Assembly (NCBI RefSeq): GCF_020150815.1
Contig: NZ_CP083723.1
Span: 1,674,001 to 1,738,000 of the forward strand
Direction: 5' to 3'
DNA: 64,000 nucleotides
From: Haloprofundus salilacus
GTDB lineage: Archaea; Halobacteriota; Halobacteria; Halobacteriales; Haloferacaceae
Made by a program: the position numbers and the translations under genes. Positions within the stretch are counted from its first letter, which is position 1. Every line of letters begins with the position of its first letter. Below, piece by piece: positions 18,856 to 56,619 of the stretch. The notes under the pieces were generated by a model. It did no database searches. It saw nothing but the letters and a program-made list of their open reading frames with translations, and was not told the DNA's origin.

Positions 18856-20004
18856 CTACTGCCGTTCACCCGCTTCGGTCGCCTCTCGCTCGGCGTTGGC
18901 GACCGACTCGGCGAGTTCGACCGCCGCCCCCAACGGAAGGTCCTCGTCGGCGTCGTCGAGCACCGCCAACAGCGCCGATACTCGCTCGAAGGTCGGTTCG
19001 GTCCCGGCGCGACGCAGGAGTCCACGGGCGGCCCCGGCACCGCTGGCCGAGCCGAACAACAGCTGGCGTTCGCCGCCGAAGGTCGCCGGGTCGAACGGTT
19101 CGAAGGTCGCCGGGTCGTCGAGCATCGCCGCCGTGTGCAGTCCCGACTCGTGGGCGAACGCGCCCTCGCCGAGCAGCGGTTTTGACGACGGCACCGACTC
19201 GCCCAACGTCGAGAGGACGGCGCGGGCGGCGGGGAGGAGTCGGTCGGTTTCAACGCCCACCTCGGTTCGTTCGTCGCCCGCGACGCAGGCGGCGACGAAC
19301 TGTTCAAGTGGGGTGTTCCCGGCGCGTTCGCCGACGCCGGCCACCGACACGTCGATTCGTCCGGCGCCGCAGTCGGCGGCGGCGAGCGCGTTCGCGGTGG
19401 CGACGCCGAGGTCGTCGTGGAAGTGGACGCCGACGTGCGAGAGGTCGTCGTTCTCGCCTACCGCCGCGAGCGTCTCCTCGACGCCGCGCGGCGTCCGCGA
19501 ACCCACGGTGTCGGCGATGACCACATACTCCGCGTCGACCTCCTCGACGAGTCGAGAGAGGAACCCCGGATCGGTCCGGAAGCCGTCCATCGCCGAGAAG
19601 TGGACCTCACATCCGGCGTCCTGCGCTGCGTCGACGGCGTCGTGAACCCGCGAGAGCAGTTCCTCGCGCGAGCAGTCGAGTAGTTGCGTCCGCTGGCGGT
19701 CGCTCGTCGGCGCGAACAGGTCGACGACGTCCACCTCGGCCTCGATAGCGGCCTCCACGTCGCCGTCGAGCGCCCGGGCGATGCCGGTCGTCTTCGCGTC
19801 GAGGTCGAGTTCGGCGCAGACTGCCGCGGTCACTTCGCCGACAACGGGGAAGCCGACCTGCACGTAGTCGACGCCCAGCGCGTCGAGCTGTCGCGCGACC
19901 TCGACTTTCTGGCCGGCCGAATAGCGCCGTCCGGGCCGCTGTTCGCCCTCGCGGAGCGTCACGTCGACAAGCGCGGGTGGTTCGTGAGCCGACGACCGCG
20001 ACAT
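18856..20004 (-). CDS. LeuA/homocitrate-synthase family aldol-condensing enzyme, 382 aa
   Basis: Enzymes of this family add an acetyl-CoA (or other acyl-CoA) unit to a 2-oxo acid. The first loop reads T-L-R-E-G-E-Q (about residues 16-22), with glutamate where isopropylmalate synthases usually have aspartate; this variant is typical of homocitrate synthases. The metal histidines appear as H-F-H-D-D-L-G (about 193-199), followed by 'GVGERAGNTPLEQF' and 'GEGAFAHESGLH'. The protein ends shortly after the catalytic barrel and subdomain, so the C-terminal LeuA leucine-binding domain is absent. It is the last gene of the transporter/CoA-transferase operon, one base after the CoA-transferase stop. 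The physiological 2-oxo acid is unknown. Confidence 0.82.
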   Translation of the reverse strand: MSRSSAHEPPALVDVTLREGEQRPGRRYSAGQKVEVARQLDALGVDYVQVGFPVVGEVTAAVCAELDLDAKTTGIARALDGDVEAAIEAEVDVVDLFAPTSDRQRTQLLDCSREELLSRVHDAVDAAQDAGCEVHFSAMDGFRTDPGFLSRLVEEVDAEYVVIADTVGSRTPRGVEETLAAVGENDDLSHVGVHFHDDLGVATANALAAADCGAGRIDVSVAGVGERAGNTPLEQFVAACVAGDERTEVGVETDRLLPAARAVLSTLGESVPSSKPLLGEGAFAHESGLHTAAMLDDPATFEPFDPATFGGERQLLFGSASGAGAARGLLRRAGTEPTFERVSALLAVLDDADEDLPLGAAVELAESVANAEREATEAGERQ

Positions 20005-20005
20005 C

Positions 20006-21229
20006 TCAGATGACCTCCTCGGTGCGGAGCGCCTCGATGTCGTCGTCGCCGTAGCCCAGCGCGGCGAGGACGCTCTCGGTGTGCTCGCCCAGGTGCGGCG
20101 GGTCCCGCGACTCCCTCGGCTCGAACGCCGACGAGAGCACCGGGAACCGTGGCACCTTCACACGCCGTTCGGCCCCCTCGGCGGTGGTTATCTCGGTGAA
20201 CGCGTCCGTCGCGTCGAGGTGTTCGTCGTCGACCACCTCGGTCACGTCGGTGACTTTCGCCACGGGGACGCCCGCCTCCCGGAGGTCAGCGACGACCGCC
20301 TCGGCGTCGCAATCGGCGAACGCGGCGGCCAGCAGTTCGGTCAGTTTTTCGACGTTATCGCGGCGGTCGGCGAGCGTCTCGAACCGTTCGTCCTCGTGAA
20401 GATCGACGGCCAGCGTCTCGCAGAGACCCACCCACTGACGTTCCCCCGACGGACCGACGAACACCCACTGCTCGTCGCGCGTCCGGAACACGTCGTACGG
20501 CGCCCAGTTCGGGTGACTCGCGCCGATGGGGTCGGGCGTTCGGTCGTACGCCTGCGCGAACGAGAGCCAGTAGCCCATCAGCGAGACGGTGCTCTCGAAC
20601 AGCGACGCGACGACTTTCTGGCCCTCACCGGTGTGTTCGCGCTGCCGGAGCGCGCCGAGCACGCCGACAGCCCCGTAGAACGAGGCGGCCATGTCGGCGA
20701 CGCTCGTCCCGCAGCGGACCGGCGGGGCGTCGGGGTGGCCCGTCACGCTCATCAGCCCCGACAGCGCCTCGGCGACCGGGTCGAGCGCGGGGTACGACTC
20801 GTACGGTCCCGGATTAAACCCCTTGATGCTACAGTAAACCAGCTCCGGGTGGGTCTCGCGAAGCTGTTCGTAGCCGACGCCGAGTCGCTCGGCCGCGCCG
20901 GGCGCGAAGTTCTCGACGACTACGTCGGCTTCCCCAAGCAGTTCGTCGAACACCTCGCGGCCCTCCTCGCGCTTAAGGTCGAGCGTCACGCTGAGTTTGT
21001 CCCGGTTGACGTAGTTGAACGAGCTGTTGCCGAGCGGACTGGAGTCGCGGACGAGATCGCCCGAACCGGGGCGCTCGACCTTGACGACCTCCGCGCCGAG
21101 GTCCGCCAGCAGCAGGCTACAGAACGGGCCCGCGACGATGTGGCCGAGTTCGAGCACCGTCACGTCCGACAGCGGTCGGTCGCCCTCGGCGTCCGCGAAC
21201 GGGTGGGTGTCCGAGTGAGTCCCGCTCAT
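20006..21229 (-). CDS. CaiB/BaiF family (class III) CoA-transferase, 407 aa
   Basis: Class III enzymes move CoA between carboxylic acids through aspartyl-CoA and anhydride intermediates. 'VLELGHIVAGPFCSLLLADLGAEVVKVE' (shown in part) is the N-terminal hallmark, 'NRDKLSVTLDLK' follows, and the catalytic aspartate is expected in 'CGTSVADMAASFYG' (about residue 175). The ATG overlaps the stop of the ABC ATPase gene by four bases (21226-21229). Substrate acids cannot be named; the adjacent importer and homocitrate-synthase-like gene suggest activation of an imported or derived acid. Confidence 0.87.
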   Translation of the reverse strand: MSGTHSDTHPFADAEGDRPLSDVTVLELGHIVAGPFCSLLLADLGAEVVKVERPGSGDLVRDSSPLGNSSFNYVNRDKLSVTLDLKREEGREVFDELLGEADVVVENFAPGAAERLGVGYEQLRETHPELVYCSIKGFNPGPYESYPALDPVAEALSGLMSVTGHPDAPPVRCGTSVADMAASFYGAVGVLGALRQREHTGEGQKVVASLFESTVSLMGYWLSFAQAYDRTPDPIGASHPNWAPYDVFRTRDEQWVFVGPSGERQWVGLCETLAVDLHEDERFETLADRRDNVEKLTELLAAAFADCDAEAVVADLREAGVPVAKVTDVTEVVDDEHLDATDAFTEITTAEGAERRVKVPRFPVLSSAFEPRESRDPPHLGEHTESVLAALGYGDDDIEALRTEEVI

Positions 21230-46569: not shown

Positions 46570-46784
46570 AGTCGGCGATTCGAGGCCAGCGGTATGAGCG
46601 ATTCGACTGCCGGCTCCTCCGTCGACGCGTCCGGGGAGACGCTACGACAATCCATCCGAATAAATAGATGAGCAGGCACTCGGATATCTATCCAAAAAGA
46701 CATCTAGAAATATTACCAGATATACGGATTCCGGGAAGTGCCGATTGCCCAACGTATTTCGAGGGGGCGAGAGAGGTACGACCG

Positions 46785-48854
46785 ATGAGCGACCCGATAC
46801 CACTCGAATCCTTCTACGACTTCACCGAGATCTCGCAGACGTTCGCGGTGTCACCCGACGGTGAGCACGTCGCGTTCGTCACCGCCGAATCCGACCAGCA
46901 CGAGGAGAAACGGCTCACCTCGCTGTTCGTCGCTCCGACCGATGGGAGTCGAGAGCCGCACCGACTGACGCGCGTCCCGGGCGGGAGTCAGCCGAAGTGG
47001 AGTCCCGACGGCGACAGACTCGCGTTCGTCGCCGCGCGCGAGAAAGACACCGAGCGCCGCGTCGGGTGGCAGAAGACAGACGACGAGGACGAAAACGAAG
47101 AGAGCGGAGCGGACGAAGCAGACGACGATGACAACGGCGACGACGAGCCGAAGTCGCAGGTCTGGCTGTTCGACCTCTCGTTCGGCGGCGACGCCCGACA
47201 GGTCACCGAATTCGACGAGGGCGTCCGCGAGTTCGACTGGTCGCCCGACGGCGACCGTCTCGTCGTCTCCGCGCGCGACCCGACCGAGGAGGAGCGCGAG
47301 TACCTCGACAGCCGGCGCGACGGTGGTCCCATCGAGACCGAGCGACTCCAGCACAAAGCCGACGGTGTGGGGTACCTCGACTCGGTCACCACGTACCTGT
47401 TCGTCGTCGATATCGAATCGGGCGAGTCCGAACGACTTGACGACGCCTACGGCGGCGGCGCGTTCGAACCGCTCTCGGGGATGAACCCGGCGTGGGGTTC
47501 GAGCGACCGAATCGCGTTCACCTCCTGCCGCCTCGAAAACCCCGACGACACGATGGTTCGAGACGTCTACAGCATCGCTCCCGACGGGAGCGACCTCGAA
47601 CAGTGGACCGACTCGGACCTCGCCGTCAACTCACCGACGTGGTCGCCCGACGGCGAGTCGCTCGCGTTCGTCGCCAGCGACCCCGAGAACTGGTACGTCC
47701 CCACCCAGCTGTTCGTCCACGACGGCGAGGCGTACGAGTCGCTCACCGCCGAACTCGACCGAACGTTGGGTCGCGGGGTGAGCCCGCAGTGGGCCGACGA
47801 CGAGACGCTGTACGTCCTCGTCGGCGACGAAGGGAAAACGCGGCCGATTCGCGCCGGCATCGACGGAAGCGTCGAGCGAGTGTTCGCGGCGCAGGGCGAC
47901 GACCGCGCGGTGAAAGGGTTCGACCTCGGCGGCGACACAGCGGGAGTCGTCCTCTCGCATCCGAGCGAGGGGCAGGATCTGTTCGCTCTGGAGATCCCAG
48001 ACCTCGGTGCGGAAAACGAATCGGCGTCGTTCGTCCGACTCTCGCACGTCAACGGCGAGTTCACCGAGGAGTACGAGATGCCGCAGGTGCGACGCGTGAC
48101 ATACGAATCGGATGGATGGGATGTGGAGGGGATCGTCTACGCACCGCCCGAGTTCGACTTCGAGAATCCGGAGGCGCACCCGCTCGTCGTCGCCATTCAC
48201 GGCGGTCCCGTCTCCTACGACGAACCGGAGTTCAGCTTCACGCACGCGGCGTTCACCTCGCGCGGGTACGTTGTCTTCCGGCCGAACTACCGCGGCGGAT
48301 CGTCGTACGGCCGGCAGTTCGCCGAGACGCTCCGCGGGCGCTGGGGAACCGTCGAAGTCGAGGACATCGCCGCCGGCATCGAGGAGATGGTCGACCGCGG
48401 CTACGCCGACCCCGACCGCGTCTTCGGCCACGGCTTCTCCTACGGCGGCATCGCGCAGGGCTTCCTCGTCACGCAGACCGACCTCCTGACCGCCGCCGCG
48501 CCCGAGCACGGCCTCTACGACCTTCGTTCCGCTTATGGTACCGACGACAGCCATATCTGGACCGAGACGGAGTACGGCGTCCCCTGGGAGGCGAGCGAGG
48601 TGCTGGACGCCTCGTCGAGCATTCTCGACGTCGGCGACCTTTCGACGCCGCTTCTGGTGATGGCTGGCGAGGAGGACTGGCGCTGCCCGCCGTCGCAGTC
48701 CGAGCAGTTGTACGTCAGCGCGAAGAAGCAGGGTGTCGACGCGAAGTTCGTCCTCTATCCTGACGAACACCACAACGTCGGCGACCCGGACCGCGCGATT
48801 CACCGACTGGAACAGATTCTGGAGTGGTACGAACGGCACGACCCGGCGAAGTAA
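46785..48854 (+). CDS. S9 family serine peptidase (acyl-aminoacyl/oligopeptidase type), 689 aa
   Basis: The N-terminal beta propeller (about residues 15-430) contains several WD40-like PD40 blades ('SPDGEHVAFV', 'SPDGDRLAFVA', 'SPDGESLAFVA'). The alpha/beta hydrolase domain carries the nucleophile in G-H-G-F-S-Y-G-G, aspartate in 'VMAGEEDWRCPP' and histidine in 'YPDEHHNVG'. An acidic loop (about 95-120) is a haloadaptive insertion. Start ATG 46785 with GTATTTC about 30 bases upstream; the longer upstream frame includes non-coding AT-rich sequence. No signal peptide, so the enzyme is cytoplasmic. Confidence 0.92.
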   Translation: MSDPIPLESFYDFTEISQTFAVSPDGEHVAFVTAESDQHEEKRLTSLFVAPTDGSREPHRLTRVPGGSQPKWSPDGDRLAFVAAREKDTERRVGWQKTDDEDENEESGADEADDDDNGDDEPKSQVWLFDLSFGGDARQVTEFDEGVREFDWSPDGDRLVVSARDPTEEEREYLDSRRDGGPIETERLQHKADGVGYLDSVTTYLFVVDIESGESERLDDAYGGGAFEPLSGMNPAWGSSDRIAFTSCRLENPDDTMVRDVYSIAPDGSDLEQWTDSDLAVNSPTWSPDGESLAFVASDPENWYVPTQLFVHDGEAYESLTAELDRTLGRGVSPQWADDETLYVLVGDEGKTRPIRAGIDGSVERVFAAQGDDRAVKGFDLGGDTAGVVLSHPSEGQDLFALEIPDLGAENESASFVRLSHVNGEFTEEYEMPQVRRVTYESDGWDVEGIVYAPPEFDFENPEAHPLVVAIHGGPVSYDEPEFSFTHAAFTSRGYVVFRPNYRGGSSYGRQFAETLRGRWGTVEVEDIAAGIEEMVDRGYADPDRVFGHGFSYGGIAQGFLVTQTDLLTAAAPEHGLYDLRSAYGTDDSHIWTETEYGVPWEASEVLDASSSILDVGDLSTPLLVMAGEEDWRCPPSQSEQLYVSAKKQGVDAKFVLYPDEHHNVGDPDRAIHRLEQILEWYERHDPAK

Positions 48855-48872
48855 GACAGCGTCCGGAGTCGG

Positions 48873-49640
48873 TCACTGGTACGTTACGCTCACTTCGACC
48901 ATCTTCGAGGCGCGTTGGAGCAGGTCGGGAATGTCCTCGCGGAACCAGCGGCCGTTGACTCGACGGGTGGGTCCGGCGACCGTCAGCGCACCGAGCAGGT
49001 CGTTCGTCTCGCGGTTGAGAATTGGCGTCGCGACGCCGCGCATTCCGTCGAGTCGCTCCTCGTCGTCGAAGGCGACGCCGGTTCGCCGTATCTCGGCGAG
49101 TTCGTCGAACAGCGTCTCGCGGTCGGTAATCGTGTTCTGGGTCTTTTCCGGCAGTCCGCGCTCGTCTAAGATTTCCTCGACACGTCCTTCCGGGAGATGC
49201 GCGAGTATCGCTTTCCCCGCCCCCGTGCAGTGAAGGTAGAGACGGATACCGAGACTCGCGTCCGTCCGGACTGCTTGGTCGGTGCGGTTGTAGTATAGGT
49301 AGACCGCTCGGCTCTGCTCTTCGACGGCGACGGCGGCGGACTCGCCGGTCTCCTCGGCCAGTTCGTTCACTACCGATTTCGTGACCGGGTAGACGAGCTG
49401 CTGGTCCAGTGCGCTCGCCGCGAGACGAAGCGAACGAAGACCGACGTGATACGCAGATCCGTTTCGTGCGACGTACCCTCGGTTCTCCAGCGTCGAGAGA
49501 TGTCTGTGGACAGTGCTCTTCGAACGACCGAGTTCCGTCGCTAACTCGGAGACGCCGGCGCTGTCGGCCGCTTCGAGCGCTTCGAGGATCTCCAGCGTCG
49601 TTTCGACCGCTTTGACCGGTTCGGTGGGACCGTTCGCCAT
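48873..49640 (-). CDS. IclR family transcriptional regulator, 255 aa
   Basis: The N-terminal wHTH (about residues 10-70) has 'GVSELATELGRSKSTVHRHL' and 'LENRGYVARNGSAYHVGLR'. The C-terminal effector domain contains 'LHCTGAGKAILAHLPEGRVE' and 'GVATPILNRETNDLLGALTV'. A CTTTATCATGG element lies about 30 bases upstream of ATG 49640. It is divergent from the transporter/HyuA/peptidase/oxidoreductase operon; palindromes at 49702-49716 and 49768-49788 are its likely binding sites. The effector is probably a substrate of that operon. Confidence 0.9.
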   Translation of the reverse strand: MANGPTEPVKAVETTLEILEALEAADSAGVSELATELGRSKSTVHRHLSTLENRGYVARNGSAYHVGLRSLRLAASALDQQLVYPVTKSVVNELAEETGESAAVAVEEQSRAVYLYYNRTDQAVRTDASLGIRLYLHCTGAGKAILAHLPEGRVEEILDERGLPEKTQNTITDRETLFDELAEIRRTGVAFDDEERLDGMRGVATPILNRETNDLLGALTVAGPTRRVNGRWFREDIPDLLQRASKMVEVSVTYQ

Positions 49641-49701
49641 CTGTTCTCCAATTCACGCAAAAGACCATGATAAAGCTTGTTCTCTATCGCGGAAAAATCG
49701 T

Positions 49702-49716
49702 TCCGTAATTCGGAAT
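49702..49716. promoter_or_regulatory. IclR-type operator candidate 1 (TTCCG-N5-CGGAA)
   Basis: TTCCG at 49702-49706 and CGGAA at 49712-49716 flank TAATT. It lies about 30 bases upstream of the IclR gene's own TATA element. Confidence 0.55.
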
Positions 49717-49767
49717 AGTACGTCTCAGACCGCACCTCTAGAACGGCAGTTGACAGCTATCGTCGAA

Positions 49768-49788
49768 TTGTTCCGCAATACGGAACAA
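49768..49788. promoter_or_regulatory. IclR-type operator candidate 2 (TTGTTCCG-N5-CGGAACAA)
   Basis: Two perfect 8-base arms (49768-49775 and 49781-49788) flank CAATA, sharing the TTCCG-N5-CGGAA core with candidate 1. This resembles sites known for IclR-family regulators in bacteria. Confidence 0.6.
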
Positions 49789-50065
49789 GGCCGTTATTAT
49801 CAATTTAGAATAATAAGAAAAACCCCCGATTATTCAGAAGTAGAAATTTGATGTTATAACTGGCGTGTGCATTCATTATAGTTCTCGTATTAGGAGTCTA
49901 GAGGTGCGAAATCGGCGGTATCTGAAGACAAGAAGAGAGTTTCGTCGACTAGTCGCGACTTCCGAAATCATCTAATTGACAATAGCCAGATATAGTAATT
50001 GACGGAATATTAAAGATAATTATTTAACTTCGATTGTCGCTCGTTGAGTTGGTGTATCACAAATC

Positions 50066-51361
50066 ATGACAGTACTCGCAGCGGTCGGAATTCTAGCAGT
50101 GTTCGCGGTGTTCGGTCTGCTGATGATGACCGAAACCGTTCCAACGTTCATCGCCCTCGCGGCGATGGCTCTCGGTATCGCAATCGTTGGCGGACTCGGG
50201 CCGACGGAGATCGTCAACTCGGTAGTCGTCGACGGATCGACGCGACTCGCGGCGGCGTTCACCGCCGTCTTCTTCGGCGCGGCGCTCGGCTCTATCGTCG
50301 AACAGACCGGCATCGCCGAGGACCTCGTCAAGTCGGCTGCCGAACTCGGCGGCGACAACCCGTTCGTCGTCGCTGTCCTGCTCTACCTCGCCGTCGCAGT
50401 TATCTCGACGAGCATCTCCGGACTCGGCGCGTTCATCATGATCGCCACCATTGTGTTCCCGATCATGGTGAGCATCGGCTTCCCCCGGAAGATTGCGGCC
50501 GGAATCACGCTGCTCGCGTACGCCAACGGGGTGATGTTCAACCCCGCGAACTGGGTGTTCTACGCCGACGTCACCGGAATCGACCTCCAGAGCGTGATGG
50601 TGTGGGCGCTACCGACAGGCGTCGCGGCGCTGCTCGCGGGAGTGGCCTACATCACGTTTCAGACCCGGACATCCGAGTTTCAGGCGACGTGGGCCGCACG
50701 CGCCGAACCGGTCGGCGGGTCGGACGATCGAAACTCGGGCGTCCCGGTGTACGCGCTGCTGTCTCCCATCATTCCGGTCGTGCTCGTCGTCGCCGGATTA
50801 GAGGTTCTCCCGGCGTTCGTCGTCGGTATATTCTTCGCGGCCGTCGCGAGCAAACCCGGACTGCGCGGGATTCGACACCCAAGACGAACTCTCAATGAGG
50901 TGACCCGTGCCTTCCACGAGGGCATCTCGAACGCCGCCCCGGCCATCGCGCTGATGGTCGCCATTGGGTGGCTTCTCAACGCGGTGTTCGCCGAGTCCGT
51001 CGCGCAGACGATGGAGCCACTCCTCTCGGCCATCATCCCGGAGAACATGGTCCTGTACGCCGCGATGTTCATCGTCCTCGCTCCGCTGGCGCTCTACCGC
51101 GGCCCGCTCAACCTTTGGGGCCTCGGCAGCGGTATCATCGGCGTCCTCGCCGCCATCGGCATCAACCCCGCGCTCATCACAACGACGGCGGTCAGCGCGC
51201 TTCGCGTGCAAGCCCCGGCGGACCCGACGAACACCCACAACGCGTGGACGGCCGACGAGATGGACGTCAACGTGAACTCGTTGACGAAGAGCGTCCTCCC
51301 GTTCGCGTGGCTCACCGCCGCCGCCGGCATCGTCTTCTCGGTCGTCCTCTTCGGCCTCTAA
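50066..51361 (+). CDS. Ion-coupled organic anion transporter (IT superfamily-like), 431 aa
   Basis: It has twelve or so hydrophobic helices, beginning with 'LAAVGILAVFAVFGLLMMTE'. Conserved polar turns, such as S-T-S-I-S-G-L-G-A-F near residue 112 and 'LAYANGVMFNPANW' near 150, are typical of C4-dicarboxylate, citrate and gluconate-type carriers. The central loop (about 205-225) is soluble. I cannot choose a subfamily or substrate. It is the first gene of the operon, controlled from the divergent region, and should import the compound processed downstream. Confidence 0.75.
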   Translation: MTVLAAVGILAVFAVFGLLMMTETVPTFIALAAMALGIAIVGGLGPTEIVNSVVVDGSTRLAAAFTAVFFGAALGSIVEQTGIAEDLVKSAAELGGDNPFVVAVLLYLAVAVISTSISGLGAFIMIATIVFPIMVSIGFPRKIAAGITLLAYANGVMFNPANWVFYADVTGIDLQSVMVWALPTGVAALLAGVAYITFQTRTSEFQATWAARAEPVGGSDDRNSGVPVYALLSPIIPVVLVVAGLEVLPAFVVGIFFAAVASKPGLRGIRHPRRTLNEVTRAFHEGISNAAPAIALMVAIGWLLNAVFAESVAQTMEPLLSAIIPENMVLYAAMFIVLAPLALYRGPLNLWGLGSGIIGVLAAIGINPALITTTAVSALRVQAPADPTNTHNAWTADEMDVNVNSLTKSVLPFAWLTAAAGIVFSVVLFGL

Positions 51362-51379
51362 TCGCACCCAGTAGACACG

Positions 51380-53536
51380 ATGAATATGGATTCACTCCGA
51401 ATCGGTATCGACGTAGGCGGAACGTTCACCGACGCCGTCGCCATCGACAGCGACACGTTGGAAGTAGTGCGACAAGTGAAGGTCCCGACGACCCACGACG
51501 CCGAGGCGGGCGTCGCTGCCGGTATCGTCGAGGCGGCGTCGCAGATTCTCGAAGACGTCGACGCGACGCCCGAAGACGTCGTCTTCATCGCCCACGGGAC
51601 GACGCAAGCGACGAACGCGCTGCTGGAGGGCGACGTATCCGCCGTCGGCGTACTCGGTATGGGAAAGGGGCTGAAAGGCCGCCGCGGGCGAACGGAGACG
51701 AACGTCGGCGACATCGAACTCGAAGACGACCAGCGCATCCCCGTCGAGCACGAGTTCGTCACCATTGGCGACGACGGCGTTCCGTCGACGGAAGCCGTCG
51801 AAGAGGCGCTCGACGCGTTCGAGGCGGCGGGGGTGGAGTCGGTAGTCGCCAGTCAAGCGTTCGGCGTCGACGACCCGACCACCGAGGAACACGCCTGCAA
51901 ACTCGCTCGCGAGGCCGGCTTCGCCGCCATCGGCGCGCACGTCGTCTCGAAGCGCTACGGACTCAAGGTGCGGACGCGGACGGCGGTGGTCAACGCGAGC
52001 ATCCTTCCGCGGATGATGAAGACCTCGCGGTCAACCGCCGAGAGCATCGCCGGGATGGGCGTCGACGCGCCGCTGATGATAATGCGCTCCGACGGTGGCG
52101 TGATGGAGATCTCGGAGATGCAGCGCCGTCCGATTCAGACGATTCTCTCCGGACCGGCGGCGGGCGTCGCCGGCGCGCTGATGTACGAGAACGTCACCGA
52201 CGGCATCTTCATCGAAGTCGGCGGGACGAGCAGCGACATCAGCGTCATCGAGCGAGGGAAACCGAAGTGGAAATCCGCCGAAATCGGCGGTCACACCACG
52301 TTCCTCCGGACGCTCGACATCCGAACAGAGGGCGTCGCCGGCGGGTCGATGATTCGCGTCGACGACGGCGAGGTGTCGGGCGTCGGCCCGCGGAGCGCCC
52401 ACATCGCCGACCTACCGTACGCGGTGTACGCCGAAACCGACGCCATCGAGAGCCCACGCCTCGTTCGCGTCCGACCGAAGGAGGACGACCCCGAGTACGT
52501 CGCCGTCGAGACGGCCGACGGAACCCGGTACGCGCTGACGCCGAGCGGCGCGGCGAACGTGCTCGGACTTGTTTCAGACGACGCCTACACGGCCGGCAAC
52601 GCCGATGCCGCGCGGCGGGCCTTCGAACCGCTCGCCGACGAACTCGGCGTCAGCGTCAACGACGCTGCGCGGGCGGTGCTCGATGCCGCAGTCGAGAAAC
52701 TTGTTCCGGTCGTCGAGGACATCCTCGACGAGTACGGACTCAACGCGGGGCTACTCGAACTCGTGGGCGGTGGCGGCGGGAGCGCGGCCCTACTGCCGTA
52801 TCTCGCCGAGACGACTGATTACGACGCTCGACTCGCGACGAACCACGCGACCATCAGCACCATCGGCGTCGGTCTCGCGATGGTCCGCGACGTCGTCGAA
52901 CGCAACGTGATGGAACCGTCGGAGTCGGACATCGAGCGCCTGCGGCGAGAGGCGATCGACTCCGTCGTCGGTATGGGTGCGAGCCAGGAATCGGTCGAAG
53001 CGACCGTTGAGTACGACGCCTCGCGAAATCTCCTACGCGCCGAAGCAGAGGGGTCGACCGAGCTCCAGACCCGAGACCTCTCGCAGGGAGCTATCGACGA
53101 CGAGAGTCGGCACGAGACGGCGGCGGCGAGCCTCGATAGCGACTCCGACGCCGTGGAGTCGGTCGCCGAGACCGAGAGCCTCCGCGTCTTCCAGACCGAG
53201 CGGTCGTCGTCGCGGTTCTTCGGTCTGCTCACCAAGACGCGTCAGCCGACTGCCGTCGTCGACGGCGGCGGAGTCGCTCGACTCAAACTCGAAGACGCCG
53301 CCGTCTACACGCTGACAGGTGAGTCGGTCGTAGAGTCGGTCGACGAGGTGCTCGACCGCGAGTCGGTGTTCTCGAACTCCTCGGAGAAACTCCCGAACCT
53401 CTACGTTTGTCACGGCAGTCAATTACTCGACGTGAGCGGCATGTCGACCAGAGACCAGATTCACTCGCTCGTCGACATCGAACTCGGCGACGTTCCGGAC
53501 GACCAACAGCTCGTACTGTTGGCGGAGAAACCGTGA
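51380..53536 (+). CDS. HyuA-like hydantoinase/oxoprolinase subunit, 718 aa, no HyuB partner
   Basis: HyuA/OplA subunits use ATP to open hydantoin or 5-oxoproline rings, or carboxylate acetone and acetophenone. The actin-like N-terminus is 'RIGIDVGGTFTDAVAID'. Further motifs are 'AHGTTQATNALLEG', 'ILSGPAAGVAGAL' and 'FIEVGGTSSDISV'. The Gly-rich 'GGGGGSAALLPYLAE' segment is near residue 457. The C-terminal 120-160 residues ('SSRFFGLLTKTRQPTAVVDG') form an added domain I do not recognise in HyuA. No hyuB gene is next to it, which is unusual. The stop overlaps the peptidase GTG by four bases. Confidence 0.85.
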   Translation: MNMDSLRIGIDVGGTFTDAVAIDSDTLEVVRQVKVPTTHDAEAGVAAGIVEAASQILEDVDATPEDVVFIAHGTTQATNALLEGDVSAVGVLGMGKGLKGRRGRTETNVGDIELEDDQRIPVEHEFVTIGDDGVPSTEAVEEALDAFEAAGVESVVASQAFGVDDPTTEEHACKLAREAGFAAIGAHVVSKRYGLKVRTRTAVVNASILPRMMKTSRSTAESIAGMGVDAPLMIMRSDGGVMEISEMQRRPIQTILSGPAAGVAGALMYENVTDGIFIEVGGTSSDISVIERGKPKWKSAEIGGHTTFLRTLDIRTEGVAGGSMIRVDDGEVSGVGPRSAHIADLPYAVYAETDAIESPRLVRVRPKEDDPEYVAVETADGTRYALTPSGAANVLGLVSDDAYTAGNADAARRAFEPLADELGVSVNDAARAVLDAAVEKLVPVVEDILDEYGLNAGLLELVGGGGGSAALLPYLAETTDYDARLATNHATISTIGVGLAMVRDVVERNVMEPSESDIERLRREAIDSVVGMGASQESVEATVEYDASRNLLRAEAEGSTELQTRDLSQGAIDDESRHETAAASLDSDSDAVESVAETESLRVFQTERSSSRFFGLLTKTRQPTAVVDGGGVARLKLEDAAVYTLTGESVVESVDEVLDRESVFSNSSEKLPNLYVCHGSQLLDVSGMSTRDQIHSLVDIELGDVPDDQQLVLLAEKP

Positions 53537-54054
53537 CGCCACGAACGGCGACGCGTCGAGAACGCGCCGACGCACTCGGTCGAGAGCACGCCGCCCGCAC
53601 GGTCGACCGCTACGGCACCCGAGAGCCGCGACGCATCGCACAGGCCGCGGGAGTGACCGTCCGAACCGACGAGTGGGGCGGGCTCTCGTCACTCGCGCTC
53701 CTCGGCACGTACGCCGACGGAACCGTAACGCTCTACACACGACAGATAGCGGCCGCCGCAGCGGCGGTCGACGTTTCGGAGTCGCTCGCAACGGAGCTGG
53801 TGCTGGCACACGAACTGGCTCATCACACGTTCGCAGTCGACCCGCCGACGTTTGGAGAGACCGAACAATCAGGCTGTCGACGGTGGCTGTCGGCGTTGCT
53901 CCCGGGCCGCCGAGACGGACTGTCGCGCGATCTCGAAGAAGTCGCCGCTCACGCGTTCGTCGCGACGCTCGTCCCCGAGTCGACCGGCGAAGCGCTGGAC
54001 GCACTCCGCACGTACTGCCCGCAGACCGACCCCTCGATTCGATACTCAGAATGA
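53533..54054 (+). CDS. ImmA/IrrE-like zinc metallopeptidase, 173 aa
   Basis: Start GTG 53533 overlaps the HyuA stop (GTGA), and its own stop overlaps the next ATG (ATGA, 54051-54054). The zinc motif H-E-L-A-H is at residues 93-97 in 'VLAHELAHHTF'; a likely third ligand is the glutamate in 'LEEVAAHAFVATLV' (about 135-136). An N-terminal helical part (about 10-45) could be a partner-binding domain. Such peptidases cleave a repressor (ImmA, IrrE). No Xre-type repressor gene is nearby; IclR across the intergenic region is a speculative target. Confidence 0.78.
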   Translation: MTPRTATRRERADALGREHAARTVDRYGTREPRRIAQAAGVTVRTDEWGGLSSLALLGTYADGTVTLYTRQIAAAAAAVDVSESLATELVLAHELAHHTFAVDPPTFGETEQSGCRRWLSALLPGRRDGLSRDLEEVAAHAFVATLVPESTGEALDALRTYCPQTDPSIRYSE

Positions 54055-56036
54055 CTGAAACCGACACCTACGACGTCGCCGTTCTCGGCGGCACGCCCGG
54101 CGGCATCGCCGCCGGAGTCCGCGCCGCCAGAGACGGTGCTGAAACCCTCTTGATCAGCTACAACTGCCACCTCGGCGGGATGATGGCGGGCGGGTTGAGC
54201 TACACAGACACGCTGATACAGAAACCCCGCGCGCCCATCCTGCAGGAGTTCGTCGACGCCGCACGCGACCACTACGCCGAGAACTACGGCGAGGACTCCG
54301 AGCAGTACGAGTTCTGCGAAGGCGGCTACATCTTCGAACCGCACGTCGCCGAGGACATCTTCGACCGCCTCGTCGCCGACGAGTCGAACTTGACGCTCCT
54401 ACGCGCCTATCGACTTGTTTCGGCGGAGCGGACGGGTCGAACCGTCCGGTCGCTCCGAATCGAACCGTTCGACCCCGAAACCGGCGAGCGACGCGACGGC
54501 GACGAGCGCCGCGTCGAAGCAGACGTGTTCGTCGAGGCAACGTACGAGGGCGACCTCGCAGCGACCGTCGGCGTCCCCTACCGGATCGGGCGCGAGTCCC
54601 GCAGCGAGTACGACGAGCAGTTCGCGGGACGGCTGTTCACGGGAATCCGCGGCGACCGCTTCTACCCCCGCGAGGCCGTCGGCAATGAGGACGACAGCGC
54701 GCCCGCCGACCGCCGCGGGCCGCTCGACGTCGCCCCCGAGAAGCGGCGCGGCGACCTCGACATCACCCCACATCCCGCGGGACTTACTGAAATATTCCCC
54801 GGCAGCACCGGCGAGGGGGACGACGCGATTCAGGCGTACAACTACCGCCTCTGTCTGAGCCGCAACCCGGAGAACCGCCGTCGCCCCGAGAAGCCGGAGC
54901 GCTACGACCGCGATGAGTTCCTCCGCGAACTCCCCGAAATAGAGGAGTCGGGGCTCCGCTCGTACCTACTGCTGCGCTACCTGCCGAACGAGAAGGCGGA
55001 CATGAACTCGGCGGACCTCCCCGGCGAGAACCACGACTACCCTGAAGCCGACTGGGAGGAGCGCGCCGAGCAGGCGCGCAGACACCGCGAGTATGCGCTC
55101 GGACTGCTCTACTTCTTGCAGAACGACGAGGCGGTCCCCGACGAGATTCGGGAAGACGCCCGCGAGTGGGGGCTGGCGAGAGACGAGTTCACGGAGACAG
55201 ACAATTTCCCGTGGCAACTGTACGTCCGCGAGGCGCGGCGCATCGAGGGACGCTACACGTTCACCGAGAACGACGCCCGCCACGCGCCCGGTCTCGACCG
55301 GACGCCAGTCCACGCCGACAGCGTCGCCGTCGCGGAGTACCCGCTCGACTCGCACGCCTGCCACGAGGAGCGACGGCTGGGAAGCCAACCGGAAGGATTC
55401 TTCTACGCCTCGCAGGTGACGCGGCCTTCGCAGGTGCCGTACCGCGCGCTGCTCCCGAAGGGCGTCGACAACCTCGTCGTTCCCGTGCCGCTGTCGTCGA
55501 CGCACGTCTCCTACGGGACGATTCGGCTCGAACCGACGTGGCTGCACATCGGCGAGTCGGCGGGCGTCGCCGCCGCGATAGCCGTCGAAACGGGCGACGC
55601 GCCCGCGAGGCTCGACCCGTCGCACGTTCAACGACGACTCGTCGACTCCGGGGTCACTCTCTCCTTTTTCAACGACGTCGACGCGGAGACGGATGCGGCG
55701 TGGGCACCGGCCGTCCAGTATCTCGGGACGAAGGGCTTCTTCGCCGACTACGACGCCCGACCGACGGCGTCGCTATCGGAGTCCGTCGCCGAGGTGTGGG
55801 CGTCGGCCGCCGCCGAACTTCGAGAGGAGGAAACAGTCGACGCGTCGGCGCTCGCCCACCGACTCCCGTCGGCCGAGGCGAGCGGTTCCGCGGAGTCCGT
55901 CACCGGCGACGCGTTCGCCGCGCGCCTCTCGGAGGCGCTCGGTGACGACGTGTCGCTCCCGGACGCCGTCGACGGAGCGGCGCCGCTCTCGCGAGGCGAC
56001 GCCTGCCTCGTCGTCTATCGGGCGCTCGCGGAGTAG
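54051..56036 (+). CDS. FAD-dependent oxidoreductase (FAD_oxidored family), 661 aa
   Basis: The dinucleotide-binding start is 'DVAVLGGTPGGIAAGVRAAR' with a G-G-x-P-G-G turn, followed by 'LISYNCHLGGMMAGGLSYTD'. The C-terminal FAD-binding part has 'HIGESAGVAAAIAVETGDAP'. These enzymes, often loosely called xanthan lyases, act on unknown organic substrates. The final 100 residues ('YLGTKGFFADYDARPTASLS' and 'PLSRGDACLVVYRALAE') resemble one or two SLH-like repeats, although no signal peptide is present. It is the last gene of the operon; the next start is 68 bases on. Confidence 0.85.
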   Translation: MTETDTYDVAVLGGTPGGIAAGVRAARDGAETLLISYNCHLGGMMAGGLSYTDTLIQKPRAPILQEFVDAARDHYAENYGEDSEQYEFCEGGYIFEPHVAEDIFDRLVADESNLTLLRAYRLVSAERTGRTVRSLRIEPFDPETGERRDGDERRVEADVFVEATYEGDLAATVGVPYRIGRESRSEYDEQFAGRLFTGIRGDRFYPREAVGNEDDSAPADRRGPLDVAPEKRRGDLDITPHPAGLTEIFPGSTGEGDDAIQAYNYRLCLSRNPENRRRPEKPERYDRDEFLRELPEIEESGLRSYLLLRYLPNEKADMNSADLPGENHDYPEADWEERAEQARRHREYALGLLYFLQNDEAVPDEIREDAREWGLARDEFTETDNFPWQLYVREARRIEGRYTFTENDARHAPGLDRTPVHADSVAVAEYPLDSHACHEERRLGSQPEGFFYASQVTRPSQVPYRALLPKGVDNLVVPVPLSSTHVSYGTIRLEPTWLHIGESAGVAAAIAVETGDAPARLDPSHVQRRLVDSGVTLSFFNDVDAETDAAWAPAVQYLGTKGFFADYDARPTASLSESVAEVWASAAAELREEETVDASALAHRLPSAEASGSAESVTGDAFAARLSEALGDDVSLPDAVDGAAPLSRGDACLVVYRALAE

Positions 56037-56103
56037 CTGAAACGACCCCGTCCGGCGCCACGGCGGACCCAACCAATTTTTCGCCCGCGCACGAAGGAAT
56101 CGT

Positions 56104-56619
56104 ATGGACTTCGAAGTCGTCCGAGGCGACATCGCCGCGCAGTCAGCGGACGCGCTCGTCAACGCAGCGGGTACGAGCCTCCGCATGGGGTCGGGCGTGG
56201 CGGGCGCGCTCCGGCGCGCAGCCGGAGAGGAACTCAACGAGGAGGCGATGTCGAAGGGACCGGTCGAACTGGGCGAAGTCGCCGTCACCGACGCGTACGA
56301 ACTCGATGCCGACTACCTGATTCACGCGGCGGCGATGCCGCACTACGGAGATGGACAGGCGACCGAACAGAGCATCCGAGACGCGACGCGGAACACGCTC
56401 GAAGTGGCCAACGAACGCGGTTGCGAGTCACTCGTGATTCCGGCGCTCGGGTGCGGCGTGGCGGGCTTTCCGCTCGACTTCGGTTCGAGACTGATTTTCG
56501 AGGAGATTTGGGCGTTCAAGCCGTCGTCGCTGCGCGACGTTCGGTTCATCGCCTACAGCGACGAGGAGTACGAGACGGTCCGCCGCGTCGCCGAAAACGT
56601 CCCGGAGGAAACGGAGTGA
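56104..56619 (+). CDS. Macro domain protein (ADP-ribose-1''-phosphate/deacylase type), 171 aa
   Basis: The ADP-ribose site motifs are 'RGDIAAQSADALVNAAG' and 'GSGVAGALRRAAGEEL', and the second glycine loop is 'PALGCGVAGFP'. A catalytic-type Asn in 'VNAAG' is at about residue 21. A CAATTTTTC element is about 27 bases before ATG 56104. It may remove ADP-ribose from proteins or bind ADP-ribose metabolites. It is monocistronic. Confidence 0.9.
   Translation: MDFEVVRGDIAAQSADALVNAAGTSLRMGSGVAGALRRAAGEELNEEAMSKGPVELGEVAVTDAYELDADYLIHAAAMPHYGDGQATEQSIRDATRNTLEVANERGCESLVIPALGCGVAGFPLDFGSRLIFEEIWAFKPSSLRDVRFIAYSDEEYETVRRVAENVPEETE

Follow-up and report, generated by a model that had tools for sequence, protein, structure and literature searches.

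A haloarchaeal operon encoding a HyuA-type ATPase without HyuB and a small HExxH protein proposed as its partner

The window, a stretch of 64,000 nucleotides of the Haloprofundus salilacus genome (contig NZ_CP083723.1), carries a transporter gene, a hyuA-like gene, a gene for a small protein with an HExxH motif, and a gene for an FAD-dependent oxidoreductase, arranged head to tail on the forward strand (Table 1). All four genes of the overlapping operon that a preliminary description had placed here are present. The overlaps said to tie the last three genes together can be read directly from the sequence: the hyuA stop codon lies within a GTGA (53533) and that of the HExxH gene within an ATGA (54051). 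The transporter gene ends 18 bp before the start of hyuA. The divergent IclR gene is part of the operon unit.

Table 1. Features of the HyuA-containing operon and its upstream region (window coordinates)
Feature	Position	Strand	Evidence or remark
IclR-family regulator, divergent from the operon	48873..49640	-	Pfam IclR_C 2.2e-36, HTH_IclR 1e-14
Palindromic operator-like site TTCCGTAATTCGGAA	49701..49715	.	One of two exact TTCCGNAATNCGGAA sites in the genome
Second palindromic operator-like site TTCCGCAATACGGAA	49771..49785	.	The other exact TTCCGNAATNCGGAA site; near-matches at L037, L038, and L039
Transporter, DcuC/CitM/GntP type (predicted carboxylate importer)	50066..51361	+	DcuC 37.3 bits (cut-off 23.1); GntP 24 bits (cut-off 22.5)
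HyuA-like ASKHA ATPase, distinct subfamily	51380..53536	+	Hydant_A_N and Hydantoinase_A matches, no Hydant_A_C; GPRSAHIA at the GxxPGP region
Small HExxH + ExxA protein (gluzincin/ImmA-like), proposed HyuA partner	53533..54054	+	GTG start overlaps the hyuA stop
PF12831 FAD-dependent oxidoreductase with C-terminal extension	54051..56036	+	PF12831 E 1.2e-89; ATGA overlap

The gap between the IclR and transporter genes holds two exact copies of the TTCCGNAATNCGGAA palindrome, 70 bp apart; the 3.73-Mb genome has no other exact copy and none of the reversed control pattern. Similar palindromes with one or two mismatches lie beside the IclR gene, the transporter gene or hyuA at the related loci L037, L038, and L039, while a search of L006, L044, and L048 found none, so that the operator sequence is not universal among the loci carrying the module. 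The IclR gene itself is present at all nine distinct haloarchaeal loci, and the natural reading is that its product acts as a dedicated local regulator of the operon. In Haladaptatus, an exact IclR-type palindrome (L004:3126-3140) separates the FAD gene from a gene for a secreted LamG protein, which suggests that this protein may share the IclR regulon.

The same five genes (IclR, transporter, HyuA, HExxH, and FAD) were found at nine of nine distinct haloarchaeal loci, the window included, and the arrangement is for this reason more than a chance juxtaposition. Five of the nine (the window, L006, L037, L044, and L048) keep the four-gene order of the window, whereas at L004, L005, L038, and L039 the FAD gene lies on the strand opposite to the transporter gene. 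The order is thus shared with other genera rather than specific to this strain. Orthologues of the window HyuA with 63 to 73% identity occur in Haladaptatus, Halocatena, Halogranum, Halostagnicola, and two further genomes. The subfamily is rare, being present in 4 of 292 sampled haloarchaeal genomes, and the remaining HyuA matches in that search are partial, with 31 to 40% identity. Across loci the pairwise identities of the five genes are correlated (rho 0.61 to 0.84), which indicates that they travel together. Among bacteria, for which the evidence comes from plasmid records only, a Selenomonas plasmid carries consecutive genes for the FAD protein, the transporter, and a HyuA 45% identical to that of the window, and a plasmid of Streptomyces sp. 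NBC_01237 carries consecutive genes for the FAD protein, a HyuA (46% identical), a small HExxH protein, and the transporter; neither has a hyuB gene nearby. In Deinococcus, the gene next to hyuA encodes an FTR1 permease, and no gene annotated as FAD_oxidored lies within 8 kb. Our literature search found no paper describing this gene combination, in agreement with the earlier remark that it appears undescribed, and the module is apparently a real, recurrent, and undescribed variant of the HyuA kind.

HyuA has so far been understood as one half of a pair, in which HyuA-type subunits phosphorylate a carbonyl compound or bicarbonate and the metal site of HyuB, an essential Asp-His-Asp-His site in HyuB proteins such as CapB, completes the reaction (PMC8453981). 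The claim that HyuA stands here without HyuB proved genuine, since none was encoded in the window or in the 14 related stretches that we searched, and the lack of HyuB is a conserved state of the locus. The genome contains a single hyuB, approximately 530 kb away, whose start overlaps the end of a canonical hyuA by 4 bp and which thus already has a HyuA of its own. The other three sampled genomes carrying the module have one to five hyuB genes each, none of them within it.

On its sequence features, the window HyuA belongs to a distinct subfamily. It matches Hydant_A_N (96.3 bits) and Hydantoinase_A (218.9 bits), both above the Pfam cut-offs, and, like the HyuA proteins of the hydantoinase/oxoprolinase family (5-oxoprolinase, N-methylhydantoinase, and the caprolactamase subunit CapA), it possesses the phosphate-1 motif DVGGTFTD, the GGTSxDIS phosphate-2 region, and a GPRSA segment. 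DVGGTFTD, which fits the family motif DxGGTFTD, does not vary among the haloarchaeal, Selenomonas, and Streptomyces members. Unlike those proteins, the subfamily has no HyuB partner and lacks in 12 of 12 aligned rows the GxxPGP adenosine motif listed as conserved in the caprolactamase paper (PMC8453981), in place of which an invariant GPRSAHIA, followed by D or G, precedes an inserted segment. Furthermore, Hydant_A_C, found in this genome's canonical HyuA, is missing in five of five members, and the second phosphate motif has D in some members and E in several others. Since GxxPGP is absent and E replaces D in several phosphate-2 motifs, normal ATP use is not assured. Acetone and acetophenone carboxylases likewise have a HyuA-type ATPase subunit, and the window protein has sequence matches to homologous chains of both, but these enzymes depend on a metal subunit of the HyuB type and on additional subunits, all of them absent here. 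The structures predicted for HyuA and for the FAD enzyme from four-sequence alignments (mean pLDDT 46 and 49, respectively) are too poor to test contacts. Foldseek searches with these models returned the expected HyuA-type and flavoprotein folds, at TM-scores so low that we draw no conclusion on the fold.

The HExxH gene begins inside or on the hyuA stop codon at all nine haloarchaeal loci. The junction is ATGA in L005, L006, L038, L044, and L048, GTGA in the window and L004, GTGATGA in L037, with an in-frame GTG overlapping by 4 bp, and TGATG in L039; in Streptomyces an ATGA lies at the same place. The family occurs in 4 of 284 haloarchaeal genomes, exactly the four that encode the module HyuA. 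Because of the stop-codon overlap and this strict co-occurrence, we consider the HExxH protein to be the more likely partner of HyuA. Its gene overlaps the 3' end of hyuA in the module just as hyuB does in the canonical pair of the same genome.

This protein had been called an ImmA-like peptidase, a label that holds in part. The residues H93, E94, H97, and E136, which make up the HExxH motif and the downstream ExxA glutamate typical of ImmA/IrrE (M78) and Zincin_1 metallopeptidases, are invariant in ten sequences, and some relatives have weak M78 and Zincin_1 profile matches (M78: three of ten members, best 6e-06). The window protein, in contrast to these peptidases, matches no relevant Pfam family, a PDB profile search with the HExxH family gave nothing significant, and its gene, which overlaps hyuA, is part of a catabolic operon. 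HExxH and the ExxA glutamate are also found in the Streptomyces protein, whose similarity to the haloarchaeal family is otherwise weak (E 0.096 when left out of the profile); as this similarity is not significant, homology there rests on motif and position. No HExxH protein was found on the Selenomonas plasmid. Given that HyuB carries an essential metal site, a metalloprotein is its natural replacement, and the best reading is that the HExxH protein, a putative zinc protein, would stand in for HyuB.

The FAD protein has a dinucleotide-binding N-terminus and matches PF12831 over the full length of the profile (positions 1 to 416 of 416, 301.9 bits), as do other FAD-dependent oxidoreductases of this family, from which it differs by approximately 130 residues beyond the Pfam match. 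This extension (window 55680-56036) has a repeat-like pattern and by eye resembles SLH-type segments. Among the loci compared, the FAD gene overlaps its upstream neighbor in the window only, and at others it stands at a distance or is encoded on the other strand. In a sister species of the same genus (G099; L056:8749-13448, compared with window 46668-56619), genes for an S9 peptidase, the FAD protein, and a macro domain protein follow one another and the genes for IclR, the transporter, HyuA, and the HExxH protein are missing. We searched the rest of that genome for orthologues of the transporter, HyuA, and the HExxH protein and found none; one of these searches had no positive control, though a tblastn search with that transporter protein did detect every module locus. 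The FAD gene of the sister species is intact, 87% identical, and under normal purifying selection (dN/dS 0.17, versus 0.18 for S9 and 0.16 for macro), part of which constraint may predate the loss. The difference between the two species could reflect a natural four-gene deletion or, possibly, a gain in the lineage of the window. In Haloarcula marina the FAD gene lies beside genes for mannonate dehydratase and IclR, with no HyuA in the stretch. The second replicon of the window's genome encodes a PF12831 paralogue (L057:9146-11278, approximately 50% identical) with genes for a class II aldolase and a PhyH protein close by; the corresponding gene of the sister species (L058) is found near GH2 and GH3 genes.

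Hydantoins, 5-oxoproline, acetone, and lactams had been named as compounds on which to grow mutants. Hydantoin, acetone, and lactam substrates find no support, and the neighborhoods point to sugar acids and polysaccharides instead. The neighbors include UxuA mannonate dehydratase and an NAD-dependent epimerase/dehydrogenase at L037; AGE epimerase at L004, L005, L038, and L039; sulfatase at L005 and L038; Tat-type exported proteins, mostly with LamG, at L004, L005, L006, L038, and L039; alpha-glucuronidase, GH3, and FAH at L046; and the GH2 and GH3 genes at L058 mentioned above. Together with the DcuC/CitM/GntP-type transporter, they make a sugar acid or an acid derived from polysaccharide a more likely substrate class than hydantoins, lactams, or acetone. 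Sulfatase, AGE, and LamG were dropped as candidate core genes of the module since they lie beside some loci only, and a sulfoquinovose pathway, considered because of the AGE/YihS likeness, has no direct support.

The explanation that we tentatively prefer, ahead of the others though short of confidence, is that of a catabolic operon under IclR control that serves the breakdown of a carboxylate taken up from outside. The transporter would import a sugar acid or polysaccharide-derived acid, and the HyuA-like protein would then, in the manner of HyuA, CapA, and the ketone carboxylases, spend ATP on activating a carbonyl group. The HExxH protein, presumably made in a fixed ratio to HyuA through translational coupling, would be the metal-bearing second subunit which completes the reaction in place of HyuB, and the FAD oxidoreductase would catalyze a redox step of its own, acting on this compound or on what is made from it. 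The main counter-evidence is the Selenomonas plasmid, with HyuA, transporter, and FAD protein and no HExxH protein; the weak likeness of the Streptomyces protein and the altered GxxPGP and phosphate-2 motifs of HyuA also speak against it, and HExxH could mark an ordinary protease. The more specific proposal of a new two-subunit ATP-dependent enzyme, with a HyuA-type activating subunit and a small HExxH zinc protein for HyuB, serving sugar-acid catabolism rather than acting on hydantoins, lactams, or ketones, is conceivable but doubtful.

Somewhat less likely still is that HyuA is a stand-alone ASKHA enzyme, for example an enzyme reactivator or a small-molecule kinase, and that the HExxH protein is a true peptidase regulating HyuA or processing another protein. 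The weak HyuA matches to the MutL and BcrAD/BadFG ATPase families, the altered adenosine-binding region and different C-terminus, the Selenomonas HyuA without an HExxH gene, and the M78 and Zincin_1 matches would all fit such an arrangement. However, no kinase or reactivator family comes nearly as close to the HyuA core as Hydantoinase_A does, HyuA-type subunits head the Foldseek list for the poor HyuA model, and strict translational coupling to HyuA would not be expected of a regulatory protease.

The preliminary description had instead made the FAD enzyme the direct partner of HyuA, oxidizing a compound that HyuA activates, ring-opens, or carboxylates. HyuA and a PF12831 enzyme do occur together at all nine haloarchaeal loci and in Selenomonas and Streptomyces, and in the window overlaps join the genes from hyuA to FAD. 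The persistence of a constrained FAD gene without HyuA in the sister species, its occurrence away from HyuA in Haloarcula marina, its opposite strand at four loci, the identity of only about 25% between the bacterial FAD proteins and that of the window, and the Deinococcus HyuA all argue against this partnership, which we regard as improbable; the description was probably wrong on this point. Least probable is that HyuA borrows the single distant HyuB of the genome and works as an ordinary hydantoinase or oxoprolinase. Each of the four module-bearing genomes checked has at least one hyuB, but the distant gene lies immediately behind a canonical hyuA of its own, which it overlaps, the module HyuA has neither the C-terminal match nor the adenosine motif of canonical members, and no hyuB lies near any copy of the module.

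If the preferred explanation with the HExxH protein as second subunit is true, the ATP-activating half of such enzymes can pair up with another catalytic half, here an unrelated small metalloprotein, and unannotated genes in haloarchaeal polysaccharide-utilization neighborhoods gain a testable function. The sister species that keeps the FAD gene alone separates the function of the FAD enzyme from that of HyuA without a new experiment.

Two observations concern genes outside the module. The exported protein encoded at L006:11936-13606, L005:12472-14157, L038:14215-15339, and L039:16119-17789 usually combines LamG with a second domain that has no counterpart in Pfam, and this recurring neighbor may represent a new family of glycan-active enzymes. 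Within the window, at 18856-21229 on the reverse strand, genes for an HMGL-like lyase/synthase and a family III CoA-transferase lie adjacent to each other.
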